64,000 nt of DNA from Chryseomicrobium sp. FSL W7-1435. Its GTDB lineage: Bacteria; Bacillota; Bacilli; Bacillales_A; Planococcaceae. Location: positions 62,001 to 126,000 of the forward strand of contig NZ_CP151997.1 of assembly GCF_038595005.1 (NCBI RefSeq). Reading direction: 5' to 3'. Both the position numbers and the translations under genes were made by a program. Shown here in pieces: positions 49,304 to 61,373 of the stretch. Below the pieces are notes generated by a model. That model had not been told where the DNA came from and did not search any database. It saw only the letters and a list, made by a program, of their open reading frames with translations. Within the stretch, counting starts at the first letter, position 1; each line of letters begins with the position of its first letter.

Positions 49304-49954
49304 TTACTCAAATAATGTAGGTAATTGATTGAACAATGTATAGCCACCCACTGTTCCACCTACCAATGTCACAATAGCTAGCACGTCGATTTGGGTTGGA
49401 GCAAATGTACGCAGCACCGCTTCTCCAACCGGAGGATTTGATTGAAATACTACGTATAGGACTAAACCAATCATCACAAATCCAAGAACTTGTGTGAATT
49501 TATCCATTAACAGCCCTGCTTCTTTCACCAAGAAGATCGCTATGGCAATAGCAGCACTTATGAGCGCCCCGGTAATAGGTGATAGGCCTGACAATACATT
49601 TAAGCCCAGGCCTGCCCCACCAATATTCCCGATATTAAAAGCAATTCCTCCTAATACAATCAGTCCGGCTAGTAAATAGCCCAGTCCTGGATACACTGCA
49701 TTTGCCACGTCTTGCGCTCGCTTTTCTGCCACAATCAAGATACGCCAAATATTCGTTTGGGCACCAATATCAAGTAAAATCGATATTAAAATAACAAATC
49801 CAAAACTTGCAGCAAGCTGTTGTGTAAATACGGTGGTTTGTGTTAGAAATCCTGGTCCTATGGCCGAAGTAGCCATTAAGAACGCTGCACCTAATAATAC
49901 ACTTCTGGTTTTCTTTTGTTCTTGTTGTGCCAATGAGACTCCTTGATCTTTCAT
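49304..49954 (-). CDS. ycsG: YcsG-like NRAMP-family transporter with apparent internal deletion
   Basis: 216 residues where YcsG proteins are about 400. Residues 20-200 match the first half of the family very well (GAAFLMATSAIGPGFLTQTTVF, AFNIGNIGGAGLGLNVL, TLVGGTVGG), but after GGTVGGY the sequence jumps to TLFNQLPTLFE and stops, a string that resembles the extreme C-terminus of full-length homologues as I remember them. This suggests an in-frame deletion of the second half rather than a simple stop. Only about six membrane helices remain, so transport is doubtful. In B. subtilis ycsG belongs to the same operon as pxpA. ATG at 49954 used. Confidence 0.75.
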   Translation of the reverse strand: MKDQGVSLAQQEQKKTRSVLLGAAFLMATSAIGPGFLTQTTVFTQQLAASFGFVILISILLDIGAQTNIWRILIVAEKRAQDVANAVYPGLGYLLAGLIVLGGIAFNIGNIGGAGLGLNVLSGLSPITGALISAAIAIAIFLVKEAGLLMDKFTQVLGFVMIGLVLYVVFQSNPPVGEAVLRTFAPTQIDVLAIVTLVGGTVGGYTLFNQLPTLFE

Positions 49955-49966
49955 GTTCCTCATCTC

Positions 49967-50722
49967 CTAAACGTGCCGAATAGTAATTCCCAATCGAGTA
50001 AATAAAGAATGAATAGCTCGGGCAAATTCTACAGCATATGGACCATCTCCATGAAGACAAATGGTATCTGCTTTAATTGGGACTGATTCTCCAAGTCGCG
50101 TTTCGACGACTCCATCGAAAACCATGCGCTCTACATGTATAAGTGCTTCTTTCAAATCCTCAATAACAGCATCTGCGTGCGTTCGAGGAGTTAATGAACC
50201 GTCTGATTCATAACGTCGATCCGCAAATACTTCTTGGGAAAGAGACATACCGTGTTTTTCAGCCGCTTCTACCCATGCACTTCCTGCAAGACCGACTACA
50301 GTAAGCTTGTCATCACAAGACTTAATTGCTTGGACAATAGCATCTGCCAGTAGCGGTTGACGTGCTGCCATATTGTAAAGTGCACCGTGCGCTTTAACAT
50401 GACGGACAGTCGTCCCACAGCTTTTAGCGACGGCTTGTAATGCACCCACTTGATAGACCGTGTAATCAAATGCCTCCTGGGGCGAAATAGTCATTTCTCT
50501 TCTTCCAAACCCTTGCAAGTCTGGTAGGCCAGGATGAGCTCCAATACTGACGTTATGCTTAGCAGCTAACTGCACCGTTTTGCGCATGACATGTGCATCT
50601 CCTGCATGAAAGCCACATGCGATGTTTGCTGAAGAGATATACGGCAAAATCGCTGTATCATCTCCCAACCTGTAAGTACCAAATGATTCTCCCATGTCAC
50701 AATTTAAATCGATAGAGCGCAT
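49967..50722 (-). CDS. pxpA: 5-oxoprolinase subunit A
   Basis: 251 residues of the LamB/YcsF family: DLNCDMGESFG, NIACGFHAGD, GAHPGLPDLQGFGRR, VRHVKAHGALYN, EVFADRRY, and CLHGDGP. With PxpB and PxpC it hydrolyses 5-oxoproline (pyroglutamate) to glutamate using ATP. AAAGGAGG sits nine bases before ATG. Overlaps the end of kipR by 26 bases. Confidence 0.95.
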   Translation of the reverse strand: MRSIDLNCDMGESFGTYRLGDDTAILPYISSANIACGFHAGDAHVMRKTVQLAAKHNVSIGAHPGLPDLQGFGRREMTISPQEAFDYTVYQVGALQAVAKSCGTTVRHVKAHGALYNMAARQPLLADAIVQAIKSCDDKLTVVGLAGSAWVEAAEKHGMSLSQEVFADRRYESDGSLTPRTHADAVIEDLKEALIHVERMVFDGVVETRLGESVPIKADTICLHGDGPYAVEFARAIHSLFTRLGITIRHV

Positions 50723-51482
50723 TGACCATTTCCTCCTTTGCTCCCAACTGGAGAGAAATTTCTCTCCCTACACTTTGTAATGCTCTTGCTAATTTTTCTA
50801 AATGCGTTTGTTCATTGAAGCGAACTTGTGGTCCAACAAAGCTTAAGCCAGCAACCACAGCTCCGTTATGATCAATTACTGGCACTGCGATAGCAGACGA
50901 ATGGGACTCTAGCTCTGAATGACTAAGTGCCCACCCACGTTCTCTCGTCTCACGTACTTTATCAAACAACTCGCTTTTTGAAAGCGGCGTTTGATCCGCA
51001 TAGGCCACGTATTGAAATTCATCTGCTAATTGCTGTTGCTCATCTTCAGTTAAATAACTGAAGATTACCCGCGGGCAGGCACCTGCATAAAGAGGTGCAC
51101 GTCTTCCAATTTGTGTGAAAACGCGAATTCTCTCTTTTGTATCTGCTTTTTCAACATAAACAGCTTCAAGACCGTCTCGCACAATCAAATTAACCGCTTC
51201 GCCGTATGTGTCTCGTAAACTTTGCATGAACGGAAAAGCCAATTCTCGTATATCTAGTCGTTCTGCAACTAGAGAACCAAACTTCAAAAAAATCAAGCCT
51301 AGCCGGTATTTATGCTCTTCACTCTTTTCTAAAAAGCCCATTTCCACCAACGTCTCTGCCATTCGATGAGCAGATGTTTTTGGTAAGCCTGTATGCTCCA
51401 TAATGTCAGCTAGGGAAGCTGTCTCTTTATCGTAGAATACATGAAGGATCTCCATAGATTTAACGACTGTTTTATTTAGCAT
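50697..51482 (-). CDS. kipR: IclR-family regulator, KipR-like
   Basis: 261 residues. N-terminal winged helix (VVKSMEILHVF, ADIMEHTGLPKTSAHRMAETLVEMGFL) and a C-terminal GAF-like effector domain (VNLIVRDGLEAVYVEKAD, RAPLYAGACPRVIFSYL, SSAIAVPVIDHNGAVVAGLSF) as in IclR proteins. In B. subtilis the IclR-type KipR represses the kip/pxp operon. Position inside the operon, between pxpC and pxpA, supports autoregulation. ATG at 51482 has GGAGG seven bases upstream and overlaps pxpC by 11 bases. Confidence 0.9.
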   Translation of the reverse strand: MLNKTVVKSMEILHVFYDKETASLADIMEHTGLPKTSAHRMAETLVEMGFLEKSEEHKYRLGLIFLKFGSLVAERLDIRELAFPFMQSLRDTYGEAVNLIVRDGLEAVYVEKADTKERIRVFTQIGRRAPLYAGACPRVIFSYLTEDEQQQLADEFQYVAYADQTPLSKSELFDKVRETRERGWALSHSELESHSSAIAVPVIDHNGAVVAGLSFVGPQVRFNEQTHLEKLARALQSVGREISLQLGAKEEMVNALYRFKL

Positions 51483-52431
51483 TTTGCCTCCTCCTTGTAT
51501 CAATGCTTACTTTCACCTCTTGCGTCCATTGCTCTACTGCTGCTGAGATATCTCGTGCCTTTTCCAACCCCACCCATTCGAACTCTATACTGTCACCCGG
51601 CTTTTTTTGTGCAAGAATGCAAAGATCTGCTCGGATAACTTGGCCTATTCGTGGATAGCCACCTGTGGTCTGTCTGTCTGCCATCAAGACAATTGGCTGC
51701 CCGTTAGAAGGCATTTGGATTGTGCCAAATGCAACAGGTTCAGAAATCATTTCTCTTGTGTCCCTAGCGTAAAGAGGGGCTCCTTGAAGCCGATAACCCA
51801 TCCTGTCCGATTGTGGAGTGACTGAATACGTTGTTGAAACAAACTCCTCTAATTGGTGCTCTGAGTAAAAAGAGCTCTCAGGTCCTTTCAACAACCGTAT
51901 GCGTGATTTATTCCACCAGCGATCAGTCGTCACATGCCAGTCACTTGAGACTAACTTCTCTGTTTTTTGCTCAGTATAAGGAATTCTGTCTCCTTTTTTA
52001 AGCATTCGTCCGTTGAAGCCGCCTATAGCCGCTCGTATAAATGTACTTTTACTATTCATGAGAAGTGGGACATCAATGCCACCCTCAAGCGCTAAATAAG
52101 CTCGACATCCTGAAATCATCTTAGAAAAATGTAGTTCACTGCCTGGCTCAACTTCTAAAGGACGTCCACATTTAACGGGTTCACCATTGAGTAATAGTAA
52201 GGTATCCCCTCCTGTGACAGCAATCCTCGTGTGTTTATGAAAGATGAATTTAGCGCCTGCAAAGGTAAGTTCTAATACTGCCTCTTCGATCGCATTACCT
52301 ACAAGTAGGTTGGCGAGTTGAAAAGACTGTACATCCATAGCTCCTGTCACACTAACCCCGTAGCGTTGATAGCCAATACGCCCTCCATCTTGAATTGTTG
52401 TAAGTGGTCCTGGCTGAATGACTTCAAGCAT
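51472..52431 (-). CDS. pxpC: 5-oxoprolinase subunit C (KipA/biotin-dependent carboxyltransferase-like)
   Basis: 319 residues. Opening VIQPGPLTTIQDGGRIGYQRYGV and later FSKMISGCRAYLALEGGID, SDRMGYRLQGAPL, and TTGGYPRIGQV are diagnostic of the KipA/PxpC (AHS2) family. Works with PxpB and PxpA. Start overlaps the pxpB stop by eight bases. Confidence 0.95.
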   Translation of the reverse strand: MLEVIQPGPLTTIQDGGRIGYQRYGVSVTGAMDVQSFQLANLLVGNAIEEAVLELTFAGAKFIFHKHTRIAVTGGDTLLLLNGEPVKCGRPLEVEPGSELHFSKMISGCRAYLALEGGIDVPLLMNSKSTFIRAAIGGFNGRMLKKGDRIPYTEQKTEKLVSSDWHVTTDRWWNKSRIRLLKGPESSFYSEHQLEEFVSTTYSVTPQSDRMGYRLQGAPLYARDTREMISEPVAFGTIQMPSNGQPIVLMADRQTTGGYPRIGQVIRADLCILAQKKPGDSIEFEWVGLEKARDISAAVEQWTQEVKVSIDTRRRQNAK

Positions 52432-53086
52432 GCGCTTCCTCCCTTTCTATGGCCACAAAGCGAATAAAGTCACCGGCCTGTAATAAACTCGGCGGGTCCT
52501 CGTGAGGTAAAAATAATTGCGTTGCTGTTCTTCCAATGATTTGCCAACCACCTGGCGTGGCAATTGAATAAACACCGGTTTGTGAACCAGCAATCCCTAC
52601 AGAACCTGCCTCAATTCGTTCACGAGGCCGATCTTTTCGAGGTGCATGGATTTCTGCTGGCAATCCAGCTAAATAAGGAAACCCGGGTGCAAAGCCAATC
52701 ATTTGTACTGGATAAACGACAGATGTATGCAGGGCAATAACTTCTTTTTCTGAAAGTCCAGCATGTCGGGCGACGATTTCTAAGTCTGGTCCTTCAGCTC
52801 CTCCATAGAGCACGGGGATTTCGACAATTCTTTGTTGTAATTCATCCACTTCTTTGCTGATTTCTGCGAGTCTCAACCACTCACCTGTCAATTTATCGAT
52901 TGAATCCTTCGGTAATGTAGGCTGTAAATAAATTCCTAAAGTTGTTGTCGTGGAAACGGTTTCAACAATTGAATGTGAAAATTGATCAATTAGTAGCTTT
53001 TCAAGTGATCTAATGCGTGCACTTGTACTAGTTTCTTGTTCGTAACGTATGATCCACAGATTTTCTGAAAGCCAATATGATTTCAT
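52424..53086 (-). CDS. pxpB: 5-oxoprolinase subunit B (KipI)
   Basis: 220 residues. AHS1 family signatures: EIPVLYGGAEGPDLE, GFAPGFPYLAGLP, RIEAGSVGIAGSQTGVYSIATPGGWQIIGRT. In B. subtilis the protein is also known as KipI, an inhibitor of sporulation kinase A. First gene of the minus-strand pxpB-pxpC-kipR-pxpA-ycsG operon; the ribosome site before ATG is weak (GGGATGGTG). Confidence 0.95.
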   Translation of the reverse strand: MKSYWLSENLWIIRYEQETSTSARIRSLEKLLIDQFSHSIVETVSTTTTLGIYLQPTLPKDSIDKLTGEWLRLAEISKEVDELQQRIVEIPVLYGGAEGPDLEIVARHAGLSEKEVIALHTSVVYPVQMIGFAPGFPYLAGLPAEIHAPRKDRPRERIEAGSVGIAGSQTGVYSIATPGGWQIIGRTATQLFLPHEDPPSLLQAGDFIRFVAIEREEAHA

Positions 53087-53261: not shown

Positions 53262-54629
53262 ATGTCACTTTCTGAATTAGGCTTCAAGGACCAGCCGTTT
53301 GACCATCTTTATTTACTGCCAATCGGCGCTGAACTACCTGTCGGCCTCTCATCTAAATCGCTACTTAACCAGTTAAATTCCACCTTTAAAAAACTAATGA
53401 CTGTATTATCTACCGATGAACTTCAATTAATCGCAAAGTTGACGCAGCTCCCAATTGGTGTTTTCCCGATTGCTGTTGTCGCAGATCAAATTGCTTACCC
53501 TTATTTGATTCAACCAGACTATTTTTTGCAGAAAAGAACTAAGCAAGGACTTCACCTAACACCGAAAACCACTCATTTTGACGACAAAAATCTAGCTAAA
53601 TTATCACCAAATCAGTTTGACTCCTATTGTGCTGAACAACTTAGTCGCTATGCATTTGCCGGAAAGCTTGTTTCACTCACAAAAAAACAGTGGAAAGAAA
53701 GAGCACAGGTAGCTTACACTCAACACCCTTTCATTCAATTGGCTTCCAACAAGCGCCTTATCATTGAAGCGGTAGAGCGGCTAAATCGTTCCATGCTTCT
53801 CGGTGTATTAAATCCTCCTGAAGATGTGGCATTTTGGCGCCATCGTGTGGAGATTGTATTACGTCCTTATAGGAGTCTTCCACCAGATGCAAGATATCAC
53901 GCATGTAATCATGCAATCACCCTAACAATTTCTAAAAACTATCCAAGTTTTCAAGTGAACTGTGAAGCATGTGCGATGAACTATGACTATTTTCCGATGG
54001 AAGATCGAGTCGCTCTTCAACAAGAGGTACCATTTGAACAAGCCGTCAAACGCATAGCTACAATCGAACGACAATTCGATGCGCTTGCTGAAGGAACACC
54101 TAAAGTCATAACAGCGCTACAAAAGCTCCATACGATTCAACAGTGGTTCCCACATAACTCTTTAGATGAAAATCAGGGTCCAGTCCACCGACTAGTGGCC
54201 TCTATCTCTGCTGCAGAATTTCCAGACACGCCTGTCGAGCCATCTCTGCTCTCTCTGCAACATGTGAAGTTATCAACGATTGATAGTCTTCGGTTTGTTC
54301 AGCCCTATCTTGCCACTACACAAGAAGAATTACAGCAACTTCTTGAAAATGAGCGAGCTGAAGAGTTGAGTACCGACAATCAAGATGCTTCAAATGAGGT
54401 TGTTTACTTCTCTACTAAGGGATACACCCTCTATGAGAATGAAGTTGATGTTATCGAGGAATACCTCTCACGGGACGAAGGAATGACGTTTCATTTATTG
54501 ATACAAGTTTTAAAAGGAGAGGCTACAAGTAAAGTACGCAGTTTAAATCTGCATTTGTCTCCTATCTTCGGGCTACTGCGGCCTTGGCCTAAAAAATTAA
54601 TCCCTCAAGCGATTAAAAGCTTTTGGTAA
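53262..54629 (+). CDS. Uncharacterised protein with Cys/His cluster and RQC-like C-terminus
   Basis: 455 residues, soluble. Middle region has HACNHAI...FQVNCEACAMNYDYFP, a C/H set that could bind zinc. The last ~70 residues (YTLYENEVDVIEEYLSRDEGMTFHLLIQVLKGEATSKVRSLNLHL...FGLLRPW) look like the compact winged-helix DNA-binding module of RecQ C-terminal type; I recall Bacillales proteins named RQC-minor with this ending, though here it is linked to no helicase domain. GAGGAGG lies eight bases before ATG; own promoter and terminator. Nucleic-acid binding is the best guess. Confidence 0.7.
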   Translation: MSLSELGFKDQPFDHLYLLPIGAELPVGLSSKSLLNQLNSTFKKLMTVLSTDELQLIAKLTQLPIGVFPIAVVADQIAYPYLIQPDYFLQKRTKQGLHLTPKTTHFDDKNLAKLSPNQFDSYCAEQLSRYAFAGKLVSLTKKQWKERAQVAYTQHPFIQLASNKRLIIEAVERLNRSMLLGVLNPPEDVAFWRHRVEIVLRPYRSLPPDARYHACNHAITLTISKNYPSFQVNCEACAMNYDYFPMEDRVALQQEVPFEQAVKRIATIERQFDALAEGTPKVITALQKLHTIQQWFPHNSLDENQGPVHRLVASISAAEFPDTPVEPSLLSLQHVKLSTIDSLRFVQPYLATTQEELQQLLENERAEELSTDNQDASNEVVYFSTKGYTLYENEVDVIEEYLSRDEGMTFHLLIQVLKGEATSKVRSLNLHLSPIFGLLRPWPKKLIPQAIKSFW

Positions 54630-54715: not shown

Positions 54716-56509
54716 TTATTGTGCGTATGCATCAAGGAATTCTTTTACTTTATCCGCATCCGCTTCAAATGTTAAACCTGTATCGACTAAAGGCGATACT
54801 GTTGAAACAGCTGGCTTTTTGTTCCCTTGGTAATACGTGATGAAATCTTGTTGATTGATAGAATACAGAACCGCTTTACGAAGGTCTGCAGACTCTGATA
54901 CTTCACGACCTGACATGTTGAACTGTAAGTAGCTCACACCGTTGCTGTCAGCTTGTTTCAGCGTCAAATTGTCGTCTGAATTCACAACATCATACTTTGT
55001 ATCTGGAACTGTTTGAAGAACGTGAATTTCCCCGTTACGTAATGCAGACAATGCACTGTCGTTATCATCAATAAAACGAACATTCACTGCATTAATTAGT
55101 GGTGCATTTTCAGAACCAGCGCGATACGCAGGGTTTTTCACAAATTGTGCTTCATAATCATTTTTCTGTACTAAGATATAAGGTCCACTCGCAAATAACT
55201 GGTTGTCGTAAGAGCCGCCTTCTGTAATTGTTGACTGATCACCATAGGCGATGTCGCTATTTGGATCATAGCTTGCCACGTCAAATGTATTGATTGCTGA
55301 AACTTGTTGTTCAGAAACAATACCACCTGATTGGTGTGCTAAGTAGTTGAGAACTTGTGGGAATGGCTGAGTTGTTGTTACTTTTACAACTTGGTAGTTT
55401 CCAGTAGCGTTATCCACTTCGTCTTCAGAAGCAACAAGCGCCGTAATATCTGCTGGAAGTTCTTGAGACAATGCTTCTAGAACACTTTCACCGTCTGGAG
55501 TTGCAGCTCCTTCAAGCTCAGCAAGGTCCGTTACAATCTCAACAGTTTCCATGTTTTCGTGAAGGCTATATGTGCGGTGATCTGGTACTGACTCAGGATC
55601 TTTTGCACGGTTCAATGAAAATACAACATCTTCTGCTGAAACTAAGTCTCCTGTATCGACCGCTTGCCCATCTTCCACAGCTGCAAAGTTAATATCGTCA
55701 CGTAGGATAAAGTAGTAATTTGAGTTATCCTCTGTCATTGCGTAGTTGTAAGATAGAGAGTCTTCTGAAACCACTTCATCCTCATCTGTAAGGTTCACAA
55801 GGCGTGAGTACATATTAGTGTTTAATGTATTGATAGATCCGTCATTTGCTTTGACCGGATCCAGAGAAGTTAATGAACCAATTGCTTGGTGCAATACCAA
55901 TGTCTCAGATGCGTTTAACGATTCGTCGTTAAATGAAATCTCTTCCCATGCCTGTGCACGTGATTTTGACAAACGTACCGTATCTGGGTTCACTTCTGCT
56001 GAGTAAATCCCCTGTGCTTTATTTGAAATATAAAGTGGGGCAATATAGGCTTGATCAAATACTAGAAGCTCTTCCACTGCTTTGTACGCTTCTACTGCTT
56101 CTTCACCAGTAACCGCACTAGCTGCATCAATTAGTTCATCAAGTTGCTCATCAGCGATGACACTGGAGGCACCGTCAGACTTAAACAATCCACGAACTGA
56201 GTAATCAGGATTTCCAGTTACAGTCGTCCAAGACGAAACTGCCACATCATAGTTCCCCGCATCTTTTTGAGAAGAGAATGAACCGTAATCTGGCTGAATG
56301 TTTAAAGTAACTTCAAAACCATTTTTTAAAAGTTGGTCACGAACGATATTCATGTCTTGCTCATTCGATGCCATACCTAATACTTCAATCACCGGTTTCT
56401 CAGCAGTAGCCGTTTCTGACACGCCCCCTGATTCACTATCTGATTTCGTTTCGACACAGCCTGCTAATACTAAAGTCGCCGCAGCGGCAACCGCAAAAAA
56501 TTTCTTCAT
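54716..56509 (-). CDS. Family-5 peptide-binding lipoprotein, apparently circularly permuted
   Basis: 597 residues. Signal peptide with lipobox LAGC (Cys 18) and a Ser/Glu-rich linker. Residues ~38-193 read like the C-terminal lobe of DppA/OppA proteins (MNIVRDQLLKNGFEVTLNIQ, GNYDVAVSSWTTVTGNPDY, EQLDELIDAASAV, YIAPLYISNKAQG). Only after that, from ~201, comes the normal N-terminus (TLVLHQAIGSLTSLDPVKAN, FILRDDINF, LVSAEDVVFSLNRA, FASGPYILVQKND, LRKAVLYSINQQDF), and the protein ends at DADKVKEFLDAYAQ, where usual homologues continue into the C-lobe. So order is C-lobe then N-lobe. First-acting component of the adjacent importer; it is the last gene of the minus-strand permease operon. Confidence 0.88.
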   Translation of the reverse strand: MKKFFAVAAAATLVLAGCVETKSDSESGGVSETATAEKPVIEVLGMASNEQDMNIVRDQLLKNGFEVTLNIQPDYGSFSSQKDAGNYDVAVSSWTTVTGNPDYSVRGLFKSDGASSVIADEQLDELIDAASAVTGEEAVEAYKAVEELLVFDQAYIAPLYISNKAQGIYSAEVNPDTVRLSKSRAQAWEEISFNDESLNASETLVLHQAIGSLTSLDPVKANDGSINTLNTNMYSRLVNLTDEDEVVSEDSLSYNYAMTEDNSNYYFILRDDINFAAVEDGQAVDTGDLVSAEDVVFSLNRAKDPESVPDHRTYSLHENMETVEIVTDLAELEGAATPDGESVLEALSQELPADITALVASEDEVDNATGNYQVVKVTTTQPFPQVLNYLAHQSGGIVSEQQVSAINTFDVASYDPNSDIAYGDQSTITEGGSYDNQLFASGPYILVQKNDYEAQFVKNPAYRAGSENAPLINAVNVRFIDDNDSALSALRNGEIHVLQTVPDTKYDVVNSDDNLTLKQADSNGVSYLQFNMSGREVSESADLRKAVLYSINQQDFITYYQGNKKPAVSTVSPLVDTGLTFEADADKVKEFLDAYAQ

Positions 56510-56530: not shown

Positions 56531-58027
56531 TTAATTTGTTTTTGGATCAAGCGCATCGCGCAGGCCATCTCCAAAAAAGTTAAATGATAGTACAAGAAGC
56601 ATGATACAAATACCAGGGAATATCGCAACGTATGAGTGGGTTTCTAAATACGTACTCCCCACTTTTAAGATATTTCCCCATTCTGGAATATGGGGTTCAA
56701 TCCCAAGTCCCAAGAAGCTTAAACTACTGGTAGCAATGACGGCTCCCCCGATCGTCAGAGTAGCTTTTACAATCATTGGGGCCAATGAGTTCGGAACGAT
56801 CTGTTTAAAAATAATCGAACCATCTGATGCACCGAGTGCTCGTGCAGCTTCTACAAACTCCAAATTGGAGAGTTGCATGACTGTCGCCCGCATCGTTCGT
56901 GCATAGGTTGGAATAGCGCCAACACTCAAGGCAATGATCAAGTTGACAGTATTTGCTCCAAAGGCTGCGATGATAGCGATAGCTAGTAATATTCCAGGGA
57001 CGGCATATAAAATATCCAACAACCGCATGATGATAGAATCTGTTCTTCTCCCAAAGTAGCCGGAAATAGCACCCAACGTCCCTCCTATTAATGCAGGAAT
57101 GACAGTGGAAGCAAAGCCGACTATCAATGAAATTTGTGCACCAAAGACAATTCGCGAAAACAAATCTCGACCAAAATCGTCCGTTCCGAGTGGATAAAGA
57201 AGCGATGGATTTTGCAAAATCGCACTATAGTTATTTTGTGTAGCAAAGTCATAATCGAAAAGCCATTCACTCATGACAGATAGGGAAAAGATAAAGGTGA
57301 TAAAGAACATCCCGAAGATAGCCATTGTGTTTCGCGTAATCTTCACCCACATCGAATTCCATTTTTCAATGGACGACGGATTTTTTGAAATGATTTTCTT
57401 TAGTAACGAATACCCTAGTAGGAAAGCAAAGAAGTTACCTGTCAAAACAGTGGCTATAAGCAAAATGCTTGGAATGAGCATCCACTTAGGAGCTGATTCT
57501 GCTGATACAAATTTTGCTGTCAGTATGATGAGCACCAGATAAATTATGGCTGCCGCTAGCAATACACCCATCGCGAGCAGAAAAGTATCGACAACGTACG
57601 GCTTAAATAAATTAAGTGCAGAGATACCAATTACAAACAGCTGTGTGAGAAGTGCATAGACAGCAAATGTATATTCAGGTGTTTGGTTTCGACTCGCAAG
57701 AGAGAATGCAAATCCTGCAGCGAATATGTTTCCTACAAGCACTGTGAGTAAGAGTGGATAGGCTAGAAGACGGGTTCCTTTTACAACTTCTCCTTTGGTT
57801 ACCACATCTTTTTTAATTTTGCGTGCAATGAATAGGACATAAATAGTAGTGACAGCATAAATAGCTAACAAACTAACTACTGGCATTCGAAGCTGAGCTT
57901 CTGAAAAGTCATAACTGTAAGCTAAAAACAAAAGTGTAAATAGTAATGTAAAGACCCAGGTGAAATTGGCATTGCGGTAATCTTGCGATAGTTTCAGACG
58001 CAGGGCGTCATTTGTGATTTGCTTCAA
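56531..58027 (-). CDS. Peptide ABC transporter permease (DppC-like) with extra N-terminal membrane domain
   Basis: 498 residues versus about 300 for DppC/OppC. The last ~280 residues are a standard BPD_transp_1 permease (LLYPLGTDDFGRDLFSRIVFGAQISLIVG, EAA loop EFVEAARALGASDGSIIFKQIVPNSLAP, FLGLGIEPHIPEWG). The first ~215 residues hold five or six extra hydrophobic helices of unknown family. Start codon is TTG at 58027 with AGGAGG seven bases upstream. Eleven bases separate it from the DppB-like gene. The lipoprotein gene follows. Confidence 0.9.
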   Translation of the reverse strand: MKQITNDALRLKLSQDYRNANFTWVFTLLFTLLFLAYSYDFSEAQLRMPVVSLLAIYAVTTIYVLFIARKIKKDVVTKGEVVKGTRLLAYPLLLTVLVGNIFAAGFAFSLASRNQTPEYTFAVYALLTQLFVIGISALNLFKPYVVDTFLLAMGVLLAAAIIYLVLIILTAKFVSAESAPKWMLIPSILLIATVLTGNFFAFLLGYSLLKKIISKNPSSIEKWNSMWVKITRNTMAIFGMFFITFIFSLSVMSEWLFDYDFATQNNYSAILQNPSLLYPLGTDDFGRDLFSRIVFGAQISLIVGFASTVIPALIGGTLGAISGYFGRRTDSIIMRLLDILYAVPGILLAIAIIAAFGANTVNLIIALSVGAIPTYARTMRATVMQLSNLEFVEAARALGASDGSIIFKQIVPNSLAPMIVKATLTIGGAVIATSSLSFLGLGIEPHIPEWGNILKVGSTYLETHSYVAIFPGICIMLLVLSFNFFGDGLRDALDPKTN

Positions 58028-58038
58028 TGTCGCCCCTC

Positions 58039-59442
58039 CTATCCTTTCTTCTTCATCGTCGAGCGTATCCGTGGATCATAAAACGCGTACAAAATATCGA
58101 TAATCAAATTTACTAATGAAATGGCAATTGCAATATAGACGACACCGCCAAGGAGTGCAGGAATATCAGGGATGAACTGCTTGTCTACGATGTAGCTACC
58201 GATACCGCTAATATTGAATACCTTCTCCGTAATGGCTGCCCCGCCCAGCATCCCGCCAAACAGCAAACCAATTACAGTAATGATAGGAATCATAGCGTTT
58301 TTCAAAGCATGTTTGGAAACGATTTGAAGCTCCGTTAGTCCTTTTGCTTTTGCTGTTACTATATAATCCTCATGAATAACCTCTAGCATGGAAGACCGGG
58401 TCATTCGAGCAATCGAAGCTGCTATAGATGTTCCGAGTACAGCTATTGGTAGGACTAGAGACAACCAATTGGACGTACTATAAGTTGCGGGGAACCACTG
58501 CAAATTGATAGAAAAGCCTAAAATGAAGAGTAACCCCTGCCAAAAGCTTGGAATCGAGAGTCCAATCAGAGCCACAATCATAAACGTATAATCCCAGTAC
58601 GTATTTGGACGTAGTGCGGATACAATCCCTGCTGGAATCGCAATGATGATAGCCATCAGTAGCGAGAATAATGCAATCGTCAAAGTGACGGGGAACTTGG
58701 AAGCGATACTTGCTGTAATATTTTCTCTTCCAGCAAATGATGTACCCAAGTCAAATGTAAATAAGCTGTGAAGAGCATTCCAAAGCTGGACAAGATACGG
58801 TTGATCCAATCCATAGATTCGATTGAAGTTGGCCACTTGTTCTGGCGTTGATTCAACTCCTAAAATGTTCCGTGCCGGATCTAAAGGCGATATGTAGAGT
58901 ATTGTAAAAACGAATGCAGCGACTCCCAAAATCACAAACACCGTTTGAACGAGACGACCAAACACGAACCAAGCGAACGATTGACTTCTACCTGCTAGAT
59001 AGACATACATGATGACCCCAAGAATGGCAGTTATCCAGAAGAATAATGGGCGTCCAATCCAGTCTGCCGTAAAGTCAGCATAGCGATTTGGTTTGATTCC
59101 TTTTTTCTCTAAGTGTGCTGCGACAAGGCGACTCTCGTGATCTGTTGTAAGCTGGCGTGCCGTTTGTTCAAGCGCCTCTGAGGACTGGCTTAGCTGAAAC
59201 GCTTTGTCTTTCGCTTGTTCTTGAGACAGATAATCCAAAAACCATTTTTCTCGCAAATCGTTGGAGAGGTTGTCTTTCTCACTAGCAACTGCCTGTTCAT
59301 AATCTCCAGATGGGCGACGAATTAGATACAGGAAGAATGTTATGAAGTGTAGAGGTAAACCAAGAAGAATAACTAGAAGATGCGTTCCTTTATGCCCTGT
59401 TGCTTTGCGGTAATTAGACTCCATAAACTGAGCAACATTCAC
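58039..59442 (-). CDS. Peptide ABC transporter permease (DppB-like) with N-terminal extension
   Basis: 467 residues versus about 310-320 for DppB. From ~157 the normal permease begins (FVFGRLVQTVFVILGVAAFVFTILYISPLDPAR, YGLDQPYLVQLWNAL, EAA loop DYIVTAKAKGLTELQIVSKHALKNAMIP, YAFYDPRIR). The extension has one long hydrophobic hairpin (LLVILLGLPLHFITFFLYLI), a charged helical region (~45-115) and another membrane helix. Start is GTG at 59442 with AAAGGAG nine bases upstream; the frame stays open further upstream but without a ribosome site and into the divergent promoter region. Confidence 0.9.
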   Translation of the reverse strand: MNVAQFMESNYRKATGHKGTHLLVILLGLPLHFITFFLYLIRRPSGDYEQAVASEKDNLSNDLREKWFLDYLSQEQAKDKAFQLSQSSEALEQTARQLTTDHESRLVAAHLEKKGIKPNRYADFTADWIGRPLFFWITAILGVIMYVYLAGRSQSFAWFVFGRLVQTVFVILGVAAFVFTILYISPLDPARNILGVESTPEQVANFNRIYGLDQPYLVQLWNALHSLFTFDLGTSFAGRENITASIASKFPVTLTIALFSLLMAIIIAIPAGIVSALRPNTYWDYTFMIVALIGLSIPSFWQGLLFILGFSINLQWFPATYSTSNWLSLVLPIAVLGTSIAASIARMTRSSMLEVIHEDYIVTAKAKGLTELQIVSKHALKNAMIPIITVIGLLFGGMLGGAAITEKVFNISGIGSYIVDKQFIPDIPALLGGVVYIAIAISLVNLIIDILYAFYDPRIRSTMKKKG

Positions 59443-59612
59443 CTCATCGCACTCCTTTCTAAGCAAAAAATTCAACCCCCCTTCCACTTTTCGGAAGAGG
59501 AGTTTTCTATGGACTTTATATATTGTATAATTCCTAGTGGTATAGTAGAGTATGAAACATATTCGAAAAAGAGTCAACTAGTTTTTCTTACTTTATGATT
59601 GAGGTGTTTAAA

Positions 59613-61373
59613 ATGGTCCAACCCATTATTTCTATAAAAGATTTACGCGTTTCTTTTCTTGCTGGAGAACGTGAAGTGGAAGCCGTTAGAGGCGTAAATT
59701 TTGAGGTGTTCCCTGGAGAAACAGTTGCGATTGTCGGGGAATCCGGTAGTGGTAAAAGTGTGACGGCCCGCTCCATCATGCGTCTCCTCCCTTCTCCTCC
59801 TTCGTTTGTAAAAAGCGGATCCATTAAGTGGAAAGATGAAGAGTTGCTTAGTGCTCCTGAAAAGCGATTGGAGCAGTTGCGTGGACGTGAGATTTCGATG
59901 ATTTTCCAGGATCCGATGAGTTCACTCAATCCCACAACTCGTATTGGCGATCAGATTGCCGAGAGTTTGACCAAGCACAAAGGTCTATCGAAACGAGAGG
60001 CGCTCGAACAAGCCATTACGTTAATGGAACAAGTCGGCATTACTAAAGCTCGCCAACGCGCAGCACAATACCCACACGAATTTTCGGGAGGTATGCGTCA
60101 ACGGGCGATGATTGCAATGGCACTCGCATGTGAACCCGAACTGTTGCTTGCCGATGAACCGACCACTGCCCTTGATGTAACGATTCAAGCACAGATTTTA
60201 GCACTTATGAAAAAGGTGCAAGAGCGTCTAGGAACAGCAATTATTCTCATCACCCATGATTTAGGTGTCGTTGCCGGAATGTGTGACCGTGTGATCGTAA
60301 TGCAAAAAGGCGAAATTGTCGAGACAGGAAGCACGGAAGAAATCTTCTATTCACCCAAACATCCTTATACGAAAAAATTGCTCGATGCCCTTCCAAAGCT
60401 TCATGAACCAAAAAAGCCGAACCTCCAGAGTCTAGTCGAGACAGACCGTGACCCTTCTCAGCCACTAGTTGAAGTCCGTTCGTTGGTAAAAGAATTTGAT
60501 TTAGGTCGCGGGGAACGTATGAGAGCAGTGAACAATATCAGCTTTTCCATTTATCCTGGCGAAACACTTGGTCTTGTCGGAGAATCCGGTTCTGGTAAAT
60601 CGACGACCGGTCGTACCCTCTTGCAACTACATCAAGCGACTTCCGGAGATGTACTATTTGATGGTATACCATTAAACCGCTTAACAAAGAAACAATTGAA
60701 ACAAATGCGAAGACGTGTTCAAATCATTTTCCAAGACCCCTATGCTTCTTTAAATCCACGTCAAAAAGTAGTCGATATAATTGGCACAGCTTTAGATTTA
60801 CATGGACTAGCCGGTTCTCGAGAACAACGTCAGACGCGCGTCGAAGAATTATTGGAACTTGTCGGTCTTGAGAAAGGACATGCGATGCGTTATCCGCATG
60901 AGTTTTCTGGAGGACAACGCCAGCGTATCGGCATTGCTCGAGCACTTGCAGTAGAACCCGACTTTATCGTTTGTGATGAACCCCTATCTGCACTAGATGT
61001 ATCGATTCAAAAGCAGATTGTCGAGCTTCTCCAAGAACTGCAACAAAAACTAGGCCTTACGTTCTTATTCATTGCTCACGATTTATCCATGGTGAAGCAT
61101 CTAAGCGATCGAGTGGCCGTCATGTACAAAGGAAAAATCGTGGAACTGGCTGAAAGTGAAGAACTCTATACGAATCCACAACATCCGTACACGAAAGCTC
61201 TTCTGGCAGCAATTCCTCTACCTGATCCACATGTAGAAGTGGAGCGCAGAGCGGCACGTGCAGTGGTAAGTGAACAAGACGCAGCCATCCACTATGACGT
61301 GGAAGATGCGCTGTTAACAGAAGTCAGCCCAAATCACTGGGTGGCACTACAACAAGAACTATCACATCACTAA
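59613..61373 (+). CDS. Fused double ABC ATPase of a peptide transporter (DppD-DppF/GsiA-like)
   Basis: 586 residues with two complete ABC domains: Walker [11 protein letters not shown] and [11 protein letters not shown]-loops [10 protein letters not shown] and [10 protein letters not shown], signatures [12 protein letters not shown] and [12 protein letters not shown], Walker B LLADEP and IVCDEP, and the oligopeptide-type tails [12 protein letters not shown] and [12 protein letters not shown]. It powers the divergently encoded permeases. ATG at 59613 has GAGGTG six bases upstream; an ATG six codons earlier lacks one. The operons are divergent from a shared ~170-base region. Confidence 0.93.

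Follow-up and report, generated by a model that had tools for sequence, protein, structure and literature searches.

The window analyzed in this study, a stretch of 64,000 nucleotides from Chryseomicrobium sp. FSL W7-1435, contains a gene for a 597-aa lipoprotein. This gene raises the question whether a solute-binding protein of family 5, which is among the largest binding-protein families, can have the two segments of its chain in swapped order. The original prediction described the lipoprotein as a natural circular permutant of the DppA/OppA type in an intact transporter operon. The coordinates given for the open reading frame (54716-56509) are correct, and the coding strand is the minus strand (56509→54716).

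Segment order of the lipoprotein

The gene and its parts are as follows.

54716-56509, minus strand: probable circularly permuted family-5 solute-binding lipoprotein (GisD-like), 597 aa (Pfam, phmmer/PDB, rotation, AlphaFold2)
56456-56509, minus strand: signal peptide and lipobox LVLAGC
55910-56404, minus strand: residues 36-200, equivalent to the later half of lobe 2 in canonical proteins plus the C-terminal stretch that leads back to lobe 1
54719-55909, minus strand: residues 201-597, the canonical N-terminus up to the first part of lobe 2, superposing on DppA (1dpe) 1-340

The lipobox cysteine (Cys18) is invariant in two sets of orthologues (17/17 and 65/65). The whole protein matches SBP_bac_5 (PF00496) with 140.5 bits at a gathering cut-off of 32.4. 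In native order there is no single N-to-C match but two reversed stretches: residues ~37-115 correspond to profile positions ~287/300-367 and residues 257-593 to positions 11-274. Run separately against the same profile, the two pieces have E-values of 1e-6 (N-terminal) and 1e-33 (C-terminal). Phmmer against the PDB returns the same swapped order, with residues 46-161 matching MppA 369-486, residues 54-159 matching 380-489 of 5u4o (a family-5 protein of Bacillus anthracis) and residues 209-593 matching the first ~320-360 residues of canonical chains (GsiB, DppA-like and others). A C-terminal-lobe segment ahead of an N-terminal-lobe segment, as originally proposed, is thus recovered when both are searched separately. 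The two segments are complementary and cover the family once in total, with just a loop absent at the cut. Judged from these alignments, the departure from usual SBP_bac_5 proteins lies in segment order and not in homology. No solved structure of the permuted family was found in the PDB by phmmer.

In-silico rotation, and rotation only, turns the 597-aa protein into one continuous Pfam stretch (SBP_bac_5 profile 11-366). Residues 242-524 of the rotated protein align to 199-489 of 5u4o with 44 bits, whereas the native order is split into matches of 17 and 19 bits; solved chains of the DppA/GsiB type likewise align across the join. We also built a profile from 17 orthologues and compared it with the canonical protein encoded in the same genome (L002). 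The native-order profile matches in separate pieces (34.6 and 32.4 bits), whereas after rotation a single domain of 78.1 bits runs through the join. We compared the rotated profile with 31 canonical proteins and every one matched, 30 in long alignments that span the cut and one (L003) only weakly. In a control of 12 genomes, about 78 canonical family-5 proteins show the normal order and the split is seen in five orthologues only, a contrast far beyond chance.

Predicted fold and position of the cut

AlphaFold2 (65 orthologues) predicts one compact protein (pLDDT 85.5, pTM 0.83) instead of two separate domains, with disorder confined to residues 1-35. VIA-align of the model superposes residues 202-597 on DppA 1-340, residues 190-597 on OppA 1-353 and residues 198-597 on GsiB 3-320 (Z about 20). 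This alignment is sequential and gives one alignment per chain, and a second range for residues 36-193 could not appear; their placement, completing the canonical fold, is predicted from sequence and model confidence.

The new termini had been expected inside the domain crossover, which did not hold. In the structural alignment, the cut falls inside lobe 2, and the model places the new termini within a loop at canonical residue ~340-353, behind the ‘DPEKAKELL’ helix and ahead of the strand that follows it. The C-terminus is assigned to lobe 2 because of the VIA-align mapping combined with the established domain boundaries, by which lobe 2 spans about 261-478 of DppA and about 271-486 of OppA. 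Residues ~510-597 represent the part of lobe 2 left at the C-terminus.

A linker of ~10 residues (around residues 193-203) would connect the former C- and N-termini, which lie on lobe 1, and new termini would have opened in the lobe-2 loop, so that the lipid anchor would sit on lobe 2 and not on lobe 1. The permuted protein would still work as a normal two-lobed trap, delivering its ligand to the GisBC permease with energy from GisA. The protein is conserved, and we predict that it functions in ligand binding.

Distribution and origin

Full-length orthologues with the same divergent operon occur across Bacillales (36-94% identity). Genomes of the same family encode full-length, colinear orthologues in about 85 of 200 cases (60-94% identity), and further families of the class do so at 37-62% identity. 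GTDB genomes yielded 282 stretches with relatives, 80 of which were kept (Planococcaceae, Bacillaceae, Paenibacillus). Elsewhere in a sample of the phylum the permuted protein is rare (4/398). A plasmid search gave one full-length orthologue (Metabacillus dongyingensis, 62.5%), and the viral contigs searched gave no match. Isolated remnants that lack the operon and seem to be decaying copies of the permuted protein are located at L066:9186-9833, G154:C10:1534533-1534757 and G131:C1:3091917-3092138, and the copy of Sporosarcina aquimarina (L117:8001-9758) has an in-frame stop.

In the tree, the permuted proteins, entered in rotated form, group into a single clade (support 100/100) whose stem is long (2.18 changes per column). 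The tree includes one sequence that is probably a wrong open frame (L172, branch 5.5), which leaves the permuted clade unaffected. A close unpermuted sister was not found, the best canonical relatives being 28-32% identical. The simplest reading is one old origin of the permutation, although descent from one parent gene is unprovable because of the long stem and the missing sister.

The same two features would fit a fusion of fragments from two family-5 genes, or two domains lying side by side. We consider this unlikely, since the segments are complementary and leave out only the loop at the cut. In addition, residues 36-200 are modelled with low confidence when taken alone (pLDDT 69, pTM 0.47) but reach a pLDDT of mostly 85-98 inside the whole protein, which speaks against an autonomous domain. 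An assembly error, a frameshift or a decayed gene might be suspected from the isolated remnants and the copy with an in-frame stop, yet the gene is one open frame with a lipobox, and this explanation is refuted, with hardly any residual probability, by hundreds of independent orthologues that share the same order and fall into the one supported clade. We prefer to read the gene product as a family-5 (cluster C) lipoprotein that has undergone circular permutation and serves as GisD in an ABC importer of the Gis type, with a probability of about 85% for the permuted-protein part. The rotation tests, the single-domain model and at least 280 relatives support the original prediction of a natural permutant in an intact transporter operon.

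The Gis-type operon and known systems

Upstream of the lipoprotein gene, the locus contains the following features.

56531-58027, minus strand: GisC/OppC-type permease, 498 aa, with a ~215-aa N-terminal membrane extension
57383-58027, minus strand: N-terminal extension of the GisC-like permease
58039-59442, minus strand: GisB/OppB-type permease with a ~155-aa N-terminal extension
59522-59543, minus strand: conserved promoter-proximal element, family consensus ACTATACnnATnGGAATTATACAATAT, directly past the -10 of the permease operon
59595-61373, plus strand: divergent double ATPase (GisA/GsiA-like), 592 aa

The start of the GisB-type gene (GTG, 59442) was inferred from orthologues, the open frame reaching 59577. 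Nearly every locus has the divergent double ATPase, followed by the two permeases and the permuted lipoprotein. A variant order is found at L067:6892-13792 in genome G555, where the permuted lipoprotein is on one strand with the permeases and with two ATPases encoded separately. No Pfam family matched the 215-aa GisC-like extension. Among 250 genomes at class level (Bacilli) it occurs in 21, exactly those with the permuted protein, and no other genome has it. The components of the system thus occur as a unit; since the extension is itself a part of the operon, this co-occurrence alone is no proof that it is functionally coupled to the permutation. In S. aureus, too, nine predicted membrane segments are reported for GisB and GisC (PMC10355420). 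We tentatively suggest that the permutation, by which the anchor left lobe 1 for lobe 2, evolved in concert with the extra N-terminal membrane segments of both permeases, in which case the binding protein would be docked or held unlike in Dpp and Opp; a re-architected type I importer is part of this rather doubtful reading.

Of 79 orthologous loci, most have the element ACTATACnnATnGGAATTATACAATAT (4.9 mismatches on average versus 8.2 in shuffles), which is possibly an operator. CymR (cysteine repressor) was considered as a possible regulator acting on this GGAATT element; none of its near-matches in the rest of the genome led to sulfur genes. A terminator-like stem with a T-run (59474-59504, minus strand) lies in the leader of the permease operon, ahead of the GTG at 59442, where attenuation is possible; Rfam gave no match over 52-64 kb. 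Genes for 5-oxoprolinase (pxpA, pxpB, pxpC), an IclR-type regulator and an NRAMP-like transporter adjoin the operon (49304-53086, minus strand), a neighborhood found in the closest genomes only (L078, L079, L089). Convergent with the binding-protein gene is a DNA-binding protein of the RQC-minor-2 family (53262-54629, plus strand; NCBIfam NF041108, 441 bits).

The window protein is a GisD homologue because its orthologues, which form one clade, include the Staphylococcus gisABCD-ggt locus. In three Staphylococcus-type loci (L062-L064), a gamma-glutamyltranspeptidase gene (ggt) lies directly downstream of the permuted lipoprotein, and their gene content identifies them as gisA / gisBCD-ggt. The window protein shares ~38% identity with GisD of this type over its full length, and its operon is likewise divergent (gisA / gisBCD). 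The genes of L062 have counterparts in a named S. aureus record (71-82% identity), where the lipoprotein is represented by its first ~225 residues only. The plasmid record of S. aureus strain 196 (L169, NZ_CP077929.1) contains an inverted duplicate that covers gisA-gisB-gisC and breaks off ~225 residues into gisD, which looks like a sequencing or assembly artefact.

In S. aureus, gisABCD-ggt, with gisA divergent from gisBCD-ggt, supports the use of GSH and GSSG; experimental support for glutathione/GSSG import is confined to this species, and complete Gis systems are reported in the S. aureus complex only (PMC10355420). Mutants of gisD are described as well (PMC12510641). By homology, at ~38% identity and with no ggt in the window operon, glutathione/GSSG or a related gamma-glutamyl thiol peptide is most likely the ligand of the window protein. 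There is an appreciable, though lesser, chance that the protein serves another ligand (an ordinary oligopeptide, a metal-chelate or a sugar conjugate) and that glutathione is used in the Staphylococcus branch only, given that ggt is not in the operon outside Staphylococcus-type loci and that opine, nickel and sialic-acid binders are among the nearest structural matches of the model. The orthology of the whole operon to gisABCD and the presence of GsiB among the first NCBIfam and PDB matches argue for glutathione, and the genome keeps a ggt elsewhere (G000:C1:184442) and has the 5-oxoprolinase genes next to the operon, both weak hints in the same direction.

We found no family-5 permutant in the open-access papers searched, although others may exist, and neither PMC10355420 nor PMC12510641 mentions a permutation of GisD. 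The original prediction knew of no description either. The protein is no isolated oddity, since GisD-like proteins of this kind are widespread. As a structural variant it is new; its family and its physiological homologue, S. aureus GisD, are already known. A conserved permutant together with S. aureus GisD allows testing whether the anchor lobe matters for docking to the permease. The same system bears on the reason for the exact tracking between permease extension and permutation and on the route by which a permutation reaches fixation in a binding fold that keeps working. Such permutants come out of standard domain tools with an incomplete or ‘split’ annotation.

Among known systems, S. aureus GisABCD-Ggt (SAUSA300_0200-0204; PMC10355420) shares the divergent ATPase, the two permeases with extra membrane segments and the lipoprotein, but has ggt in its operon, unlike the window. 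Canonical cluster C proteins (DppA, OppA, AppA, E. coli GsiB = YliB 1uqw, and GbpA) share the Pfam family, the rotated alignment and the predicted fold of window residues 190-597, whereas the window protein has swapped segments and, according to the model, its termini and lipid anchor on lobe 2. Permutation in other binding-protein classes is documented. TpMglB-2 (Tp0684) of Treponema pallidum, assigned to ‘cluster Bc’ (PMC4990184), is also a natural permutant of a two-lobed lipoprotein with relatives in Gram-positive bacteria, but it belongs to the sugar-binding type I/cluster B class and has a different cut. The glycine-betaine binders OpuAC and ProX (CPSARST, PMC2395249) are likewise related by circular permutation among ABC binding proteins, yet represent another binding-protein class and not family 5.
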